Positions 7,399 to 15,498 of a stretch of 32,462 bases of DNA are shown here, piece by piece. The stretch covers positions 1-32,462 of the forward strand of contig JAKMFW010000076.1 in NCBI GenBank assembly GCA_022425325.1. The letters are read 5' to 3'. The position numbers and the translations under genes were made by a program. Source of the stretch: Acidimicrobiales bacterium. GTDB taxonomy: Bacteria; Actinomycetota; Acidimicrobiia; Acidimicrobiales; Aldehydirespiratoraceae. Numbering within the stretch: position 1 is the stretch's first letter; every line of letters starts with the position of its first letter. The notes beneath the pieces are model-generated. The model did no database searches and was not told the DNA's origin. It worked only from the letters and a program-made list of their open reading frames with translations.

Positions 7399-8138
7399 GC
7401 GGGGACTCCGTCGTCTTCGTAGACATAGCCGTCGGTGGCCATGGTGAGCCGATGCCGCGGCCCCGCGACCGTGGCATCGCCGGTGTCGTAGCCGGCGTCG
7501 CCCTCCCACATCACGACCGGGAAGTCGCCGCCCGACGCGACCTTGGTGGCGTGGTGACGGGCGGGGCGTTCGTCGAGAAACTTGAGCAGCGAGGCGACCG
7601 TGTCGTGGCCGGTGAGGGTGTCGAGCGTGACCCAGGTTGGTGGCACGATCTCGATCTCACCGTCGTGATGCTTGGCCAGCACTGCGGCCGGGGTGGCCCA
7701 CGACATCTCGACGATTTCGCCGTCGTCGATGATCACGTCGTCGTCATCGACCGGAGCAGCGAAGAACCAGGTGGCGTACCGCTTCGGCGCGATCGCCGGC
7801 GGGATCCAGTGAGCGAACACGACCATCTCGTGGGCCTCGACCCTCAAGTGCGCCTCTTCGGCCGCCTCGCGGATGGCGGCGTTGCGGGCGGCGTCGACGT
7901 CCTCGTCGGCCCCGTCCCAATCCTCGTCGTCGACCTTGCCGCCGGGGAACACCCACATGCCCCCGAACGCGATCTTGGAGTTCTTGCGCAGCATCAGTGT
8001 CTCGGGGCCCTCGGGCCCGTCGCGCAACACGACGACCGTGGCGGCCGGCATGGCCGGCGTGTCGCCGGTCTCCTTTGCGAACTTCGCCCAGGCGGCGTGT
8101 CGCTTTCGATCGGTTTCGACACGGTCCTCGGCGCTCAT
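7395..8138 (-). CDS. Nudix hydrolase with an expanded Nudix box
   Basis: This 247-aa Nudix-fold phosphohydrolase would cleave a nucleoside-diphosphate-linked compound using metal bound by the REAAEEAHL helix (90-98). The box begins at FPGGKVDD (64-71), but about 17 residues separate the first conserved Glu from the RE pair instead of the usual seven. This acidic insertion (DWDGADEDVDAAR) resembles the NUDT19-type subfamily, some members of which hydrolyse CoA or acyl-CoA. The N-terminal strand AATVVVLRDG and a long C-terminal extension with conserved PPTW are also visible. The gene starts at the ATG at 8138, 8 nt after a TATCCT hexamer, and is followed with 4-bp overlap by the ATPase gene. 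The substrate is unknown. Confidence 0.85.
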
Positions 8139-8146
8139 CGGTTCCG

Positions 8147-8152
8147 AGGATA
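8147..8152 (-). promoter_or_regulatory. Candidate -10 for the Nudix-ATPase pair
   Basis: TATCCT (minus strand) ends 8 nt before the Nudix ATG at 8138, so this pair may be transcribed independently of the UGA-containing gene that ends at 8159. Confidence 0.4.
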
Positions 8153-8158
8153 CCGGTG

Positions 8159-8470
8159 TCAGCGGACCAGGTTGATCGGGCAGGGGGCGCCGTCGACCCC
8201 GTCGACATGCACACCGATACCTCGGCCGAGGAGACCGCTCTTCATCACCGTCACCTCGACCGGAAGTCGGGCGAGATCATGGTCGATCAAGACGACGATG
8301 TCGCCGACCTGTGTCCGGTGGTAGGCGTCGAGCCTGCGACCGGTTGCGCGAGTGTCGACCGACACCTCGAACTTCTTGCCTCAACCGTACGGCTCGAGCA
8401 GGTCGACGATGGCCGTGCCGCCCTTCCGGGCGATGTTGGCCACGGCGGTTTCGGTGACATCGAGTCGCAT
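8159..8470 (-). CDS. Candidate selenoprotein with in-frame UGA (HesB/IscA-like?)
   Basis: An ATG at 8470 opens a frame of 103 codons ending at TGA 8159-8161, interrupted only by TGA at 8381-8383 (codon 30). The flanking residues read LLEPYG-U-GKKFEVSVD. Before the UGA, 25 of 29 codons end in G or C, as in real genes here. Beta-strand-like character continues across it (TAIVDL, KKFEVSV, GDIVVLID, VEVTVM, GIGVHVDG). A SECIS-like hairpin starts 11 nt after the UGA (separate entry). The strand order, a G-Sec-G where A-type Fe-S proteins have a cysteine, and a C-terminal Cys97 recall the HesB/IscA fold, for which bacterial selenoprotein members have been reported. This assignment is tentative, because the usual C-terminal CxC pair is reduced to one Cys. 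Alternatives are a nonsense-mutated gene, or a 68-aa product from the GTG at 8365. The Nudix gene starts 20 bp downstream. No selenocysteine machinery gene lies in the window. Confidence 0.6.
8349..8369 (-). promoter_or_regulatory. Candidate bacterial SECIS hairpin
   Basis: On the minus strand, CGA-(G)-GTGTC-GGTC-GACAC-TCG folds into 3 bp, one bulged G, 5 bp and a GGTC apical loop. The loop begins 20 nt after the UGA at 8381-8383. The GGUC loop, short upper stem and single bulged 5' nucleotide match the general plan of the E. coli fdhF SECIS that binds SelB. There the bulge is a U and the loop lies about 18 nt after the UGA. GTT/AAC pairing can extend the base of the stem. Confidence 0.6.
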
Positions 8471-8494
8471 GACGGTGTGAACCGTTGTGCCTCT

Positions 8495-8507
8495 GAGGAA
8501 ATTCCTC
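8495..8507. promoter_or_regulatory. 13-bp palindrome in the divergent region
   Basis: GAGGAA-A-TTCCTC is a perfect odd palindrome between the UGA-containing gene (start 8470) and imuA' (start 8554). It is a candidate operator, but its binding protein cannot be named. The minus-strand GGAGG within it is too far from the 8470 ATG to be its ribosome binding site. Confidence 0.35.
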
Positions 8508-8528
8508 CATCACCCCCTTGCCATGAGG

Positions 8529-8542
8529 CGAACATATGTTCG
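8529..8542. promoter_or_regulatory. LexA (SOS) box of imuA'-imuB
   Basis: CGAACATATGTTCG is a perfect palindrome matching the actinobacterial/Gram-positive LexA consensus CGAACnnnnGTTCG. It ends 11 nt before the imuA' ATG at 8554 and abuts a GATACT hexamer (8542-8547), so bound LexA would block the promoter. The identical 14-mer lies before dnaE2. Confidence 0.92.
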
Positions 8543-8547
8543 ATACT
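8542..8547 (+). promoter_or_regulatory. Candidate -10 of imuA'
   Basis: GATACT ends 6 nt before the ATG at 8554. It partly overlaps the SOS box and favours this start over the ATG at 8536, which lies inside the LexA site. Confidence 0.4.
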
Positions 8548-8553
8548 CGCGCG

Positions 8554-9255
8554 ATGGCAACGGGCCACGCTCGAAATCTCGCCGTCGAGCTCGACGAGCG
8601 GGCGGATTCGGCGACCCGTCGCGCCGAGCTTCGGCTCGTCGGCGAACGGGTCACGCCGATGGCTCTGGCGCGCGAGCAGACCCTTCCGGTGCTCGGCCCG
8701 CTTGTTCCGCTGTTCCCCGAAGGGGCGTTGCGGCGGGGGAGCATCGTCGGCATCCGGGGCTCGGGCGCCACGTCGCTGGCGATGGCCGTCGCCGCAGGCC
8801 CGTCGACCTCGGGAGCCTGGACGGCCGCCGTCGGCGACCCCGATCTCGGGCTGGCTGCGGTCGGCGAACTGGGGGTGGCTCTCGAACGCCTGTTGATCGT
8901 GCGGCCCGAGCCCGGCAACTGGTCCTCGGCACTCGCCGCACTCGTCGGTGCCGTCGACGTCGTCATCGCCGCCCCCCGGCACCGCATCAGCGACACCGAT
9001 GCCCGGCGCATGGCGGCTCGTCTACGGGAACGGGGCTCGGTGCTGATCCATATCGGCGATCGTTGGCCGGTCGGTGCCGATGTGCAGCTCGACATCGCTA
9101 CCGGCGAATGGGAAGGGCTCGGCGACGGACATGGGGTGCTGCGGTCACGGCGCCTCGACATCCAGGGCGGCGGTCGAGGGTCGGCGTCGCGTCCCCGTCA
9201 GCTCGAAGTCCTCGTGCCTGGCCCCGGCGGGGCGGTGGCCGCACTCGCCGCGTGA
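8554..9255 (+). CDS. imuA': ImuA' mutasome accessory protein (RecA-like)
   Basis: This 233-aa RecA-fold accessory protein acts in the ImuA'-ImuB-DnaE2 translesion-synthesis mutasome, which is responsible for damage-induced mutagenesis. The identification rests on its length, the PLFPEGALRRGSIVGIRG block leading into the RecA-like core, and above all its position: an SOS box directly upstream and imuB overlapping downstream. The P-loop-like segment GIRGSGATS lacks the Walker A lysine (Ala in its place), so canonical ATP hydrolysis is doubtful. I start at the ATG at 8554, because the alternative ATG at 8536 lies in the LexA box and upstream of the likely -10. The stop overlaps the imuB GTG by 4 bp (GTGA). 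Confidence 0.85.
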   Translation: MATGHARNLAVELDERADSATRRAELRLVGERVTPMALAREQTLPVLGPLVPLFPEGALRRGSIVGIRGSGATSLAMAVAAGPSTSGAWTAAVGDPDLGLAAVGELGVALERLLIVRPEPGNWSSALAALVGAVDVVIAAPRHRISDTDARRMAARLRERGSVLIHIGDRWPVGADVQLDIATGEWEGLGDGHGVLRSRRLDIQGGGRGSASRPRQLEVLVPGPGGAVAALAA

Positions 9256-12143: not shown

Positions 12144-12169
12144 GTTAGGCGAACATATGTTCGCCTAAC
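12144..12169. promoter_or_regulatory. 26-bp perfect palindrome containing the dnaE2 LexA box
   Basis: The core CGAACATATGTTCG (12150-12163) is identical to the imuA' box. Here the symmetry extends six more bases on each side (GTTAGG...CCTAAC), giving a perfect 26-bp palindrome. The right arm merges into the proposed -10 (TAACGT, 12166-12171). It ends 8 bp before the dnaE2 ATG and could also form a hairpin at the 3' end of the upstream transcript. Confidence 0.93.
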
Positions 12170-12177: not shown

Positions 12178-15100
12178 ATGGGTTTCAACAATCCCGACAT
12201 CTCGTGGGGCGAACTCGAACGCCGCTTGTCCGGCCGCCCCCACGACGGACGCCTCGTCGATCCGCTTGCCGGCGACGGCAGTGACAGCCCGGCCTGGTCG
12301 CGCAAACGGGCGCCCTACGTCGCCCCCGACACCGCACTTCGCGCCGGGCGAGTGCCCTACGCCGAACTGCACTGCCACTCGAACTTCTCGTTCCTCGACG
12401 GGGCGTCACACCCCGAGGAGTTGGCCGAAGAGGCCGCCCGGCTCGGTCTGGAGGCCCTTGCCCTCACCGACCACAACGGCTTCTACGGCGTGGTGCGGTT
12501 CGCCGAGGCGGCCAGAGCGGTCGATCTACCCACGATCTTCGGAGCCGAACTCACCCTGGCCGAGCCGGGTCGTGCGCTCAAGCGTCCCGGTCCGGCCGAC
12601 CCTGCCGGGCGTCACCTCGTCATCCTCGCCCGCAATCCCCGCGGTTACGCCCTGCTCGGTCGCGCGATCAGCGAAGGCCAACTGGCAGGGGAGAAGGGGG
12701 CGCCCCGGATCCCGTACGAACGCCTTGTCGAACTCGGCGGGCAGGGCACTGGCGATCACTGGGCGGTGCTCACCGCCTGCCGCAAGGGCCCGGTGCCGGC
12801 TGCGCTCATGACTGATGGGCCGGTGGCTGCCCGGCATGAACTTGCGCGCATGGCGAGCGACTTCGGGCAGTCCAACGTGTTCGTCGAACTGTGGGACCAC
12901 GGCCTGCCGATGGACTCGGTACGCAACGACGCCATGGCCGAACTGGCGGCACAGGTCGGGGTCGACATCATCGCCACCGGCAACGTCCACCACCACTCGG
13001 TCGCCCGGAAGCGACTCGCGTCGGCGATGGCGGCGGTTCGGGCCCGTCGCAGCCTCGACGAGATCGACGGTTGGCTGCCGCCCGCCGGCATGCACTTGCG
13101 TTCGGGGGAGGAACAGGCATTCCGGTTCCGGCGCTACCCGGGTGTGGTGCAGCGGGCATACGAGCTCGGGATGGACTGTGCGTTCGACTTCTCCCTGGTC
13201 GCTCCGAACCTGCCGCCATACCCGTGTCCCGGCGGCCTCGATGAGATGGGGTACCTCCGTCGGCTGGTCGAAGAGGGCGGTACCCGTCGCTATGGGCCCC
13301 GCAGCGCTGAACGGGTCGAGGGAGCCTGGGCACAACTCGACCGTGAACTCGACCTCATCAACGAACTCGGTTTTCCCGGGTATTTCCTTGTCGTGTGGGA
13401 CATCGTCGACTTCTGCCGGCGGGCCGACATCCTCTGTCAGGGCCGGGGTTCGGCAGCGAACTCGGCGGTCTGTTTCGCCCTCGGCATCACCAACGCCGAC
13501 GCCGTGTCGCTCGGGCTGTTGTTCGAGCGGTTTCTCTCGCCCGAGCGTGATGGTCCCCCCGACATCGACATCGACATCGAGTCCGACCGTCGTGAGGAAG
13601 TCATCCAGTACGTCTACGACCGCCACGGCCGTCACCACACCGCCCAGGTCGCCAACGTCATCACCTATCGGTCGAAATCGGCGATTCGCGACATGGCCAA
13701 GGCGCTCGGGTACGCCCAAGGTCAACAAGATGCCTTCTCCACGCAGGTTGACCGGTGGCGCGATGTGCTGTCGGGAGCGATTGAGGACGACACCACCATC
13801 CCGCTTCCCGTGGTCGAGTTGGCGGCCGAGATCGAACACTTCCCTCGGCATCTCGGTATTCACTCCGGCGGCATGGTCATGTGTGACCGGCCGGTGATCG
13901 AGGTGTGCCCGGTCGAGTGGGGACGCATGGAAGACCGCAGCGTCCTGCAGTGGGACAAGGACGACTGTGCGGCTGCCGGCCTGGTGAAGTTCGACCTCCT
14001 CGGCCTCGGCATGTTGTCGGTGCTGCACTACGCCACCGATCTCATCGCCGAACACCACGGCGTCGAGGTCGATCTCGCCACACTGCCGCAAGAGTCGTGC
14101 GTCTACGACATGTTGCAGAAGGCCGACTCGATTGGCGTTTTCCAGATCGAGTCCCGAGCCCAGATGGCCACCCTTCCCCGGCTCAAACCCCGCACGTTCT
14201 ACGACCTCGTCGTCGAGGTGGCCTTGATCCGGCCAGGCCCGATCCAGGGCGGCTCGGTGCATCCCTACATCCGCCGTCGAAACGGTCTCGAACCCGTCAC
14301 CTACCTCCATCCGTTGCTCGAGAACGCGCTGGCCAAGACCCTCGGCGTGCCGCTCTTCCAGGAGCAGTTGATGCAGATCGCAATCGACGTCGCGAACTTC
14401 ACCCCGGCCGACGCCGACATGCTGCGTCAGGCAATGGGTTCCAAGCGCAGCCGCGAGCGCATGGATGATCTCAAGGCCCGCTTCTTCGACGGGATGCGGA
14501 CCAATGGCATCACCGACGACATCGGCGAGCAGATCTGGCTGAAACTCGCCGCCTTCTCCAACTACGGCTTCCCCGAGAGCCACTCGGTGTCGTTCTCCTA
14601 TCTCGTCTATGCGTCGTCGTGGATCAAGTACCACTATCCGGCGGCGTTCTGTGCTGCGCTGTTGAAGGCCCAGCCGATGGGGTTCTGGTCGCCGCACACG
14701 CTGGTCGGCGATGCCCGTCGCCACGGGGTGGTAGTGCGGACCCCCGACCTCAACCGTTCGGCTGCCACGGCCACGTTGGAGCCGTGTGAGGGCAGCACCG
14801 GTTCGGTGAGCGTGCGGCTGGGGTTCGACTATGTGCGCGGTATCGGCCGCGATCTGGCCGAGGAGATCGACGCCGGCCGCCCGTTCGCCTCGGTCGAGGA
14901 TCTCCGCCGCCGGGTGCCGTCGTTGTCGCTCGCTCATCTCGAGGCGCTCGCCACCGCCGGAGCATTCGGGTGCTTCGGCATCGACCGTCGCTCAGCGCTG
15001 TGGGCAGCCGGAGCGATGTCGCAGACCTCGGCCGACCGTCTTCCGGGCATCGTCACCGGCGTCGAGGCGCCCACGCTGCCGGGCATGTCGCCCCAGGAGT

Positions 15101-15498
15101 TGTCACACGCCGACCTGTGGGCCACCGGCGTCGCCCCCGACGGCCATCCCACCTCGTTCATCCGAGGCGATCTCACCGAGCGGGGTGTGGTCACCGCCAC
15201 CGACCTGGCCGATGTGGCGTCAGGGGAGCGGGTGCTCGTCGGTGGGGTCGTCACCCATCGTCAGCGGCCAGCCACCGCCCAGGGCACGACCTTCCTCAAC
15301 CTCGAGGACGAGACCGGCCTGATCAACGTGGTTGTCTCCAAGGGCTGTTGGCAGCGTTACAGACAGATCGCCAAGGGGGCACCGGCACTGTTGATCCGAG
15401 GTCGGCTCGAGAAAGAAGAGGGCGTGATCAACATCGTCGCCGACAAACTCGAACCCCTACCGATTGGCGCTGCGCCGGCGTCACGTGACTTCCGCTGA
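12178..15498 (+). CDS. dnaE2: DnaE2 (ImuC) error-prone DNA polymerase III alpha
   Basis: This 1106-aa C-family polymerase performs damage-induced translesion synthesis with ImuA' and ImuB. The PHP domain is at about 60-330 (YAELHCHSNFSFLDGASHPE, LALTDHNGFYGVVRF). The polymerase active site PDIDIDIES is near residues 461-469, and a further conserved VKFDLLGLGML lies near 603. Then come the helix-hairpin-helix region (GFDYVRGIGRDLAEEI, SLAHLEALATAGAFGCFG) and a C-terminal OB fold (VLVGGVVTHRQRPATAQG, FLNLEDETGLINVVV). The short length and absence of a C-terminal clamp/tau-binding extension distinguish it from the replicative DnaE1. The ATG at 12178 lies 6 nt after TAACGT and just behind a LexA box. 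The promoter is its own, because the membrane protein gene separates it from imuB. Confidence 0.95.
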   Translation: MGFNNPDISWGELERRLSGRPHDGRLVDPLAGDGSDSPAWSRKRAPYVAPDTALRAGRVPYAELHCHSNFSFLDGASHPEELAEEAARLGLEALALTDHNGFYGVVRFAEAARAVDLPTIFGAELTLAEPGRALKRPGPADPAGRHLVILARNPRGYALLGRAISEGQLAGEKGAPRIPYERLVELGGQGTGDHWAVLTACRKGPVPAALMTDGPVAARHELARMASDFGQSNVFVELWDHGLPMDSVRNDAMAELAAQVGVDIIATGNVHHHSVARKRLASAMAAVRARRSLDEIDGWLPPAGMHLRSGEEQAFRFRRYPGVVQRAYELGMDCAFDFSLVAPNLPPYPCPGGLDEMGYLRRLVEEGGTRRYGPRSAERVEGAWAQLDRELDLINELGFPGYFLVVWDIVDFCRRADILCQGRGSAANSAVCFALGITNADAVSLGLLFERFLSPERDGPPDIDIDIESDRREEVIQYVYDRHGRHHTAQVANVITYRSKSAIRDMAKALGYAQGQQDAFSTQVDRWRDVLSGAIEDDTTIPLPVVELAAEIEHFPRHLGIHSGGMVMCDRPVIEVCPVEWGRMEDRSVLQWDKDDCAAAGLVKFDLLGLGMLSVLHYATDLIAEHHGVEVDLATLPQESCVYDMLQKADSIGVFQIESRAQMATLPRLKPRTFYDLVVEVALIRPGPIQGGSVHPYIRRRNGLEPVTYLHPLLENALAKTLGVPLFQEQLMQIAIDVANFTPADADMLRQAMGSKRSRERMDDLKARFFDGMRTNGITDDIGEQIWLKLAAFSNYGFPESHSVSFSYLVYASSWIKYHYPAAFCAALLKAQPMGFWSPHTLVGDARRHGVVVRTPDLNRSAATATLEPCEGSTGSVSVRLGFDYVRGIGRDLAEEIDAGRPFASVEDLRRRVPSLSLAHLEALATAGAFGCFGIDRRSALWAAGAMSQTSADRLPGIVTGVEAPTLPGMSPQELSHADLWATGVAPDGHPTSFIRGDLTERGVVTATDLADVASGERVLVGGVVTHRQRPATAQGTTFLNLEDETGLINVVVSKGCWQRYRQIAKGAPALLIRGRLEKEEGVINIVADKLEPLPIGAAPASRDFR

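Follow-up and report, generated by a model that had tools for sequence, protein, structure and literature searches.

Probable Selenoprotein Gene and Its Reading Frame

The window analyzed here is the whole contig (C51 of its genome) of 32,462 nucleotides, and its minus strand carries a coding-like frame that is broken once by TGA. The question raised by this locus is whether that TGA is read as a stop codon or as selenocysteine (Sec) and, in the latter case, what kind of protein is produced. From comparison with homologous sequences, the gene at 8470..8159 very probably encodes a selenium-containing protein. The gene and its internal UGA are located as follows.

8470..8159, minus strand: predicted selenoprotein gene; ATG at 8470-8468, 103 codons, stop TGA at 8161-8159
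8383-8381, minus strand: in-frame UGA, codon 30; putative Sec by comparison (column match in homologues, Cys codons in a second class)

An earlier sequence-only reading had described this frame, and its 103 codons with a single internal TGA at codon 30 were recovered. The 25 G/C-ended codons that it counted among the 29 before the UGA were also found, and 60 of the 73 codons after the UGA end likewise. A plain ORF listing retains just the 68 amino acids from GTG 8365, the remnant expected by that reading. Long open frames are frequent in this GC-rich window and, therefore, the open frame by itself is weak evidence; the UGA-containing frame stands above chance because the TGA is conserved in homologues.

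Those near relatives that carry names are Acidimicrobiaceae and Acidimicrobiales MAGs. The window protein is 68% identical to L029 and 72% identical to L061. Before the UGA, the changes at codon positions 1, 2, and 3 number 6, 4, and 15 relative to L029 and 4, 3, and 13 relative to L061. After the UGA, with the hairpin codons excluded, the corresponding values are 19, 12, and 27 (L029) and 15, 13, and 26 (L061). The changed codons in this second portion are 25 nonsynonymous versus 15 synonymous for L029 and 23 versus 14 for L061.

Homologues with UGA or Cys at Codon 30

The read-through protein was used as the query against 395 genomes of the host's class. Matches were obtained in 31 genomes, and exactly one TGA is present in 30 of the 31. 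Alignment A1 was assembled from 27 of the 30 one-TGA genomes together with L061 (28 rows). The Sec column is invariant throughout A1, and the same UGA context appears in the remaining three translations. A search of the phylum with A1 (396 genomes) gave 14 matching genomes, and four genomes outside the host's class have Cys at the Sec column. Among the 66 genomes of a second, related class, that of G503, matches were obtained in 21, with TGA in 10 and TGC or TGT in 11; the four Cys genomes of the phylum search are included among these 11. The sequence-only reading would have been abandoned had homologues ended at the same TGA or lacked both Cys and Sec at codon 30. Instead, the homologues continue past the TGA into a conserved core and have TGA or TGC/TGT at that codon. 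The comparison supports a Sec/Cys exchange at codon 30.

The counts below cover 40 UGA genes and 11 Cys genes. G199 was dropped (E of 8.4e-4, no stop codon, outside the selA-positive rows), as were L073 (E of 9.7e-4, sequence unlike the family) and, from the second class, L125 (a contig-end fragment) and L126 (a relative with a CC motif). The CC relative L072 was kept outside the counts and used for the NF041239 score and the column comparison. L057-L061 are near relatives of included rows and were left outside the 40 rows; the UGA and the hairpin are present in all five.

A second in-frame TGA was observed in L111 (G796:C57:10045-10341), where it aligns with the last Cys and precedes Gln-His and a further TGA, as in relatives. 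This second TGA may be an ordinary stop, since many members end ...PT-stop at that place, or a second Sec, which is not claimed.

Candidate bSECIS Hairpin

The element proposed to direct recoding of the UGA lies inside the codons that follow it.

8352..8365, minus strand: candidate bSECIS hairpin core GUGUC-GGUC-GACAC; stem of 5 bp, loop GGUC, separated from the preceding UGA by 15 nt

The hairpin core sequence occurs as a single exact copy in the window. The exact 14-mer is present in 38 of the 40 UGA genes versus none of the 11 Cys genes. The 5 bp stem with its GGUC loop is intact in all 40 UGA genes; none of the 11 Cys genes has all five pairs, and 2 to 4 of the five are retained there. The stem of L035 is kept via a compensatory change from U-A to G-C, which alters the peptide from EVSVDT to EVAVAT, and the stem of L111 is kept via a G-U pair. 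In L049, one extra codon precedes the hairpin and the loop is 3 nt further from the UGA. The hairpin codons are frozen in the UGA genes, with GTG in 40/40, TCG in 39/39 for Ser, GTC in 40/40, and GAC in 39/39 for Asp; elsewhere in the same genes these codons are used at 32%, 32%, 58%, and 77%, respectively.

The bSECIS model, as given in PMC13188914, has an upper stem of 4-16 bp, a loop of 3-9 nt with G in the first two positions, a loop located 16-37 nt after the UGA, and an energy of -7.5 kcal/mol or lower. The stem (5 bp), the loop (GGUC), and the spacing (loop starting 20 nt after the UGA) fall within these ranges in 40/40 UGA genes. The energy of the 20-nt hairpin of the window is -7.2 kcal/mol versus the limit of -7.5, and that of 45 nt is -13.4. 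An energy of -7.5 kcal/mol or lower was calculated for the hairpins of 37 of the 40 UGA genes versus 0 of the 11 Cys genes, for which the best value is -7.3. The 45-nt energy does not separate the two sets, as the limit is passed by 40/40 UGA and 11/11 Cys genes. Folding of the 61-nt region shows no advantage over shuffled sequences (z of 0.13), and all matches in an Rfam scan of 8000-8600 are below the gathering scores. Recoding of the UGA by a SECIS element is supported by the comparison among genes.

Selenocysteine Machinery and Decoding of the UGA

The host genome (2.6 Mb, 102 contigs, 95% complete) was examined for the selenocysteine pathway. One tRNA-Sec was detected above the Rfam cut-off, with the anticodon tca assigned by ARAGORN. 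The genes for SelB (288 bits), SelA (371 bits), and SelD (364 bits) were each identified above the curated cut-off. The absence of selAB, selC, and selD, which had been named in advance as evidence against a selenoprotein, was thus not found. The selD gene (L025 1501-2427, minus strand, G000:C101) contains an in-frame TGA within GAGUGCKLAP, and SelD itself appears to be a selenoprotein. The sole PF01521 match of the genome, L094 (G000:C50:13611-13913), shares a contig with selA and selB and is some 2 kb away from selA.

A selA match is present in 30/30 UGA genomes of the host's class versus 275/395 overall (hypergeometric P of 1.1e-5, uncorrected for kinship); the match in G333 is weak (1.3e-8) and partial. 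In the second class, selA was matched in 9 of the 10 UGA genomes, 6 of the 11 Cys genomes, and 47 of 66 overall. No selA match was found in the UGA genome G737 (80% complete), and the match in the UGA genome G798 is weak and partial.

Two other readings of the UGA were weighed against decoding as Sec. If the UGA were a true stop, it would mark a pseudogene or result from a sequencing error, or else the gene would start at GTG 8365 and encode 68 aa; that 68-aa ORF does appear in the plain ORF listing. However, the same UGA is found in 40 genes from 40 genomes of two classes with the protein conserved on both sides, and the Cys forms, the frozen hairpin codons, and the one compensatory change also argue against termination. 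In addition, GTG 8365 is the first codon of the hairpin itself. A plain stop or pseudogene was rejected on the conservation of the UGA in two classes, the Cys forms, and the retained hairpin, and is considered very improbable. Nothing was found in favor of a reassigned UGA, decoded in the host organism as an amino acid other than Sec (Trp, for example). The terminal stop of the gene is TGA, the column codon is Cys in 11/11 non-UGA genes of the second class, and the hairpin accompanies the UGA and is not intact in the Cys genes. This reading was also rejected, and its probability is close to negligible. For the preferred reading, SelB and tRNA-Sec would insert selenocysteine at the UGA of codon 30, and the bSECIS hairpin inside the downstream codons would direct the recoding.

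Family Placement and Predicted Fold

The closest family model is NF041239, which matches 28/28 members of A1 at E ≤ 10, with a best E of 6.9e-8; the matches span almost the full length. The window protein scores 21.7 bits and the ten other printed scores range from 22.6 to 39.3, all below the curated cut-off of 40 bits. The value of 39.3 bits is that of the CC relative L072, whose second Cys falls on the Sec column. Sec is preceded in most cases by Gly or Ser; L072 and L126 do carry a CC motif. These two proteins (from G570 and G797, respectively) are actinobacterial CC-motif relatives that may link the subfamily with NF041239. The NF041239 profile gave no match at E ≤ 0.001 in the host's own genome, which is no evidence of absence because the controls gave no match either.

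PF01521 (Fe-S_biosyn) matched 0 of the 28 A1 members at E ≤ 10. The Pfam search returned no match for the window protein and only weak, unrelated matches for the 28 members. TIGR01911 is unlisted for all 28 members at E ≤ 10 in a HMMER search whose filters discard most weak matches. No match was obtained in a sequence search of the PDB or in a tblastn search of plasmids with L037.

Structural models were generated with AlphaFold2 from two alignments, one headed by the window protein and the other by L065, with mean pLDDT values of 84.3 and 83.8, respectively. When each model was compared with the PDB using Foldseek, 6 of the first 10 rows were titled IscA or SufA; the remaining rows are HesB-type proteins, one of them titled putative Fe-S biosynthesis protein. 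The best E values are 1.3e-3 for the window model and 8.4e-5 for the L065 model. Alignment to SufA (2d2a) with VIA-align gave a Z of 8.5 and an rmsd of 2.9 over 84 aligned residues for the window model, and a Z of 10.2 and an rmsd of 2.4 over 85 for the L065 model. In the list for the L065 model, ten HesB-type rows have Z of at least 5.9, whereas Z is 2.8 and 2.6 for the other two rows. Alignment A3 (29 rows) was compared using hhalign with 16 carriers, namely E. coli IscA and SufA plus 14 sequences from the host's class. A probability of 84 and an E of 7.6e-6 were obtained over 86 columns, with Sec30 opposite Cys35 of IscA.

The predicted fold and the profile comparison support the HesB/IscA relationship guessed at in the sequence-only reading as far as distant homology is concerned, and the result with PF01521 speaks against membership in that family. 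On its predicted fold, the window protein is a remote homologue of the A-type carriers (IscA/SufA/HesB) outside the PF01521 family. It is described here as a remote homologue, perhaps carrier-like, and not as a family member because the fold and profile agree but PF01521 matches 0/28 members.

C-Terminal Tail and Possible Function

The second residue considered for function is in the C-terminal tail.

8180..8182, minus strand: codon for Cys97, C-terminal tail; might pair with Sec30 or serve as a second ligand

The lone Cys noted in the sequence-only reading is residue 97 of the translation. In alignment A2, its column is that of the last Cys of the relatives and of E. coli IscA. The tail region is poorly modeled (block pLDDT of 40-61). 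The tails of the 40 UGA forms contain Cys plus HxH in 13, Cys only in 9, HxH only in 17, and neither in 1 (L053), so that Cys and/or HxH is present in 39/40 and Cys in 22/40. A tail Cys is present in 11/11 Cys forms. Cysteine is absent from 18 of the 40 UGA forms in the stretch scanned, which begins 28 codons ahead of the UGA and runs to the stop, and 17 of these 18 have HxH. The pairing of Sec30 with Cys97 that had been suggested is, consequently, no general feature. Because of this distribution, a metal site formed by Sec30 and tail ligands is favored over a general internal Sec-Cys bridge.

The ligands of IscA are three cysteines, Cys35 and the two of the C-terminal CGC. These three are not matched here, with Sec at the Cys35 column and a tail that lacks CGC. 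By analogy with IscA, Sec30 would occupy the place of Cys35 in a small A-type-like fold, and the selenolate together with the C-terminal tail would bind a metal or Fe-S center. That the selenolate is such a ligand, with a variable tail (HxH, Cys, CxxC, or CC), is the likeliest role considered, although we give it somewhat less than an even chance; the protein would therefore act like an A-type carrier or metal chaperone. A more specific version is rather doubtful. It holds that these proteins form a branch of the A-type carrier fold in which Sec replaces the key ligand cysteine and HxH, HxH...C, CxxC, or CC replaces CGC, giving a metal or Fe-S carrier ligated by selenolate and histidine.

A selenoprotein of this fold could also function as a thiol/selenol redox enzyme. 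Sec30 would then be joined in a selenylsulfide to Cys97 or to a partner protein, and the IscA-like fold would be a mere scaffold. According to PMC13188914, a redox role is presumed for most uncharacterized selenoproteins, and both the single Cys near the end of the window protein and the tail Cys of 22/40 UGA forms fit such a role. Against it are the 18/40 UGA forms without cysteine in the scanned stretch, 17 of them with HxH instead, and the location of Sec on the cluster-ligand column of IscA; a redox function is possible but has the smaller share of our confidence. The novelty of the protein is affected by a different reading, in which it belongs to the known CC/Se family NF041239 as a divergent protein and is hence new in the host group only. 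The matches of 28/28 A1 members at E ≤ 10 (best 6.9e-8) and the 39.3 bits of L072, whose second Cys aligns with Sec, against the cut-off of 40 point that way. However, the window protein at 21.7 bits and ten others at 22.6 to 39.3 are all under 40, mostly Gly or Ser rather than Cys precedes Sec, and the Sec motif of NF041239 is given as CxxU in PMC13188914. Membership in NF041239 is considered unlikely. The preferred explanation as a whole, a selenoprotein with Sec30 directed by SelB and a bSECIS, remotely homologous to the A-type carriers and belonging to a subfamily related to NF041239, is held with high confidence.

Genomic Surroundings

The selenoprotein gene lies opposite an imuB-like ORF and is followed, after 20 nt, by a NUDIX gene in the same orientation. 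Crude ORF clustering showed that neighbors are shared only within small sets of loci, with no family-wide partner. Two identical perfect palindromes, CGAACATATGTTCG, were observed at 8529-8542 and 12150-12163 of the window, where they precede the imuB-like ORF (PF00817) and a DnaE-type polymerase ORF (12178-15498). We take these palindromes to be LexA/SOS-box-like, and the two ORFs with their palindromes are probably an SOS mutagenesis cassette. The selenoprotein gene, too, has the palindrome at 8529-8542 upstream of it. If one mismatch is permitted, the pattern occurs 4 times, near chance (mean 2.43).

Comparison with Known Systems

Actinobacteria were already reckoned rich in selenoprotein families in 2006 (PMC1794560). 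Table 1 of the 2026 review (PMC13188914) contains 119 families, as counted by the review itself, NF041239 and TIGR01911 included. No entry of that table could be matched to the window subfamily, and the strings Actinobact, Actinomycet, and Acidimicrobi are absent from the text of the review. Nothing on the subfamily was found in the full-text literature searched; a mention in Haft and Tolstoy 2025 or Haft and Gwadz 2023 is possible. The sequence comparisons point to a new actinobacterial selenoprotein subfamily, distantly related to NF041239 yet below the cut-off of that model. A well-supported selenoprotein subfamily from many environmental actinobacteria is thereby added, whose gene is truncated in a plain ORF reading.

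The Sec form of SelD is the other UGA-containing gene seen in the host genome, but it is an enzyme of the Sec pathway unrelated to the window protein. TIGR01911 is a selenoprotein family named HesB-like, and its Sec motif is UxGP in Table 1 of PMC13188914; the 28 A1 members have no listed match to it at E ≤ 10. Sec/Cys conversions of HesB-like proteins are known (PMC1794560). Here, a single small protein occurs in both a Sec and a Cys version, with the SECIS kept in the former and broken in the latter.

NF041239 is listed in the same Table 1 as a predicted selenoprotein family (CC/Se motif family) with no stated function. It is the best profile match for 28/28 A1 members, and the CC of L072 aligns with the Sec column. 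The window subfamily differs in having G/S-U-G where NF041239 has CC or CxxU, and all 11 printed scores are below the cut-off. A predicted fold is now provided for the neighborhood of this unexplained CC/Se family and, therefore, a testable mechanism near it.

The predicted fold of the window subfamily resembles that of IscA and SufA (PF01521), and Sec is on the column of Cys35 of IscA. In place of the C-terminal CGC of IscA there is one Cys, HxH, HxH...C, CxxC, or CC, and PF01521 matches 0/28 members. If Sec does act as a cluster ligand, the Fe-S carrier fold would here put selenium to an unusual use.
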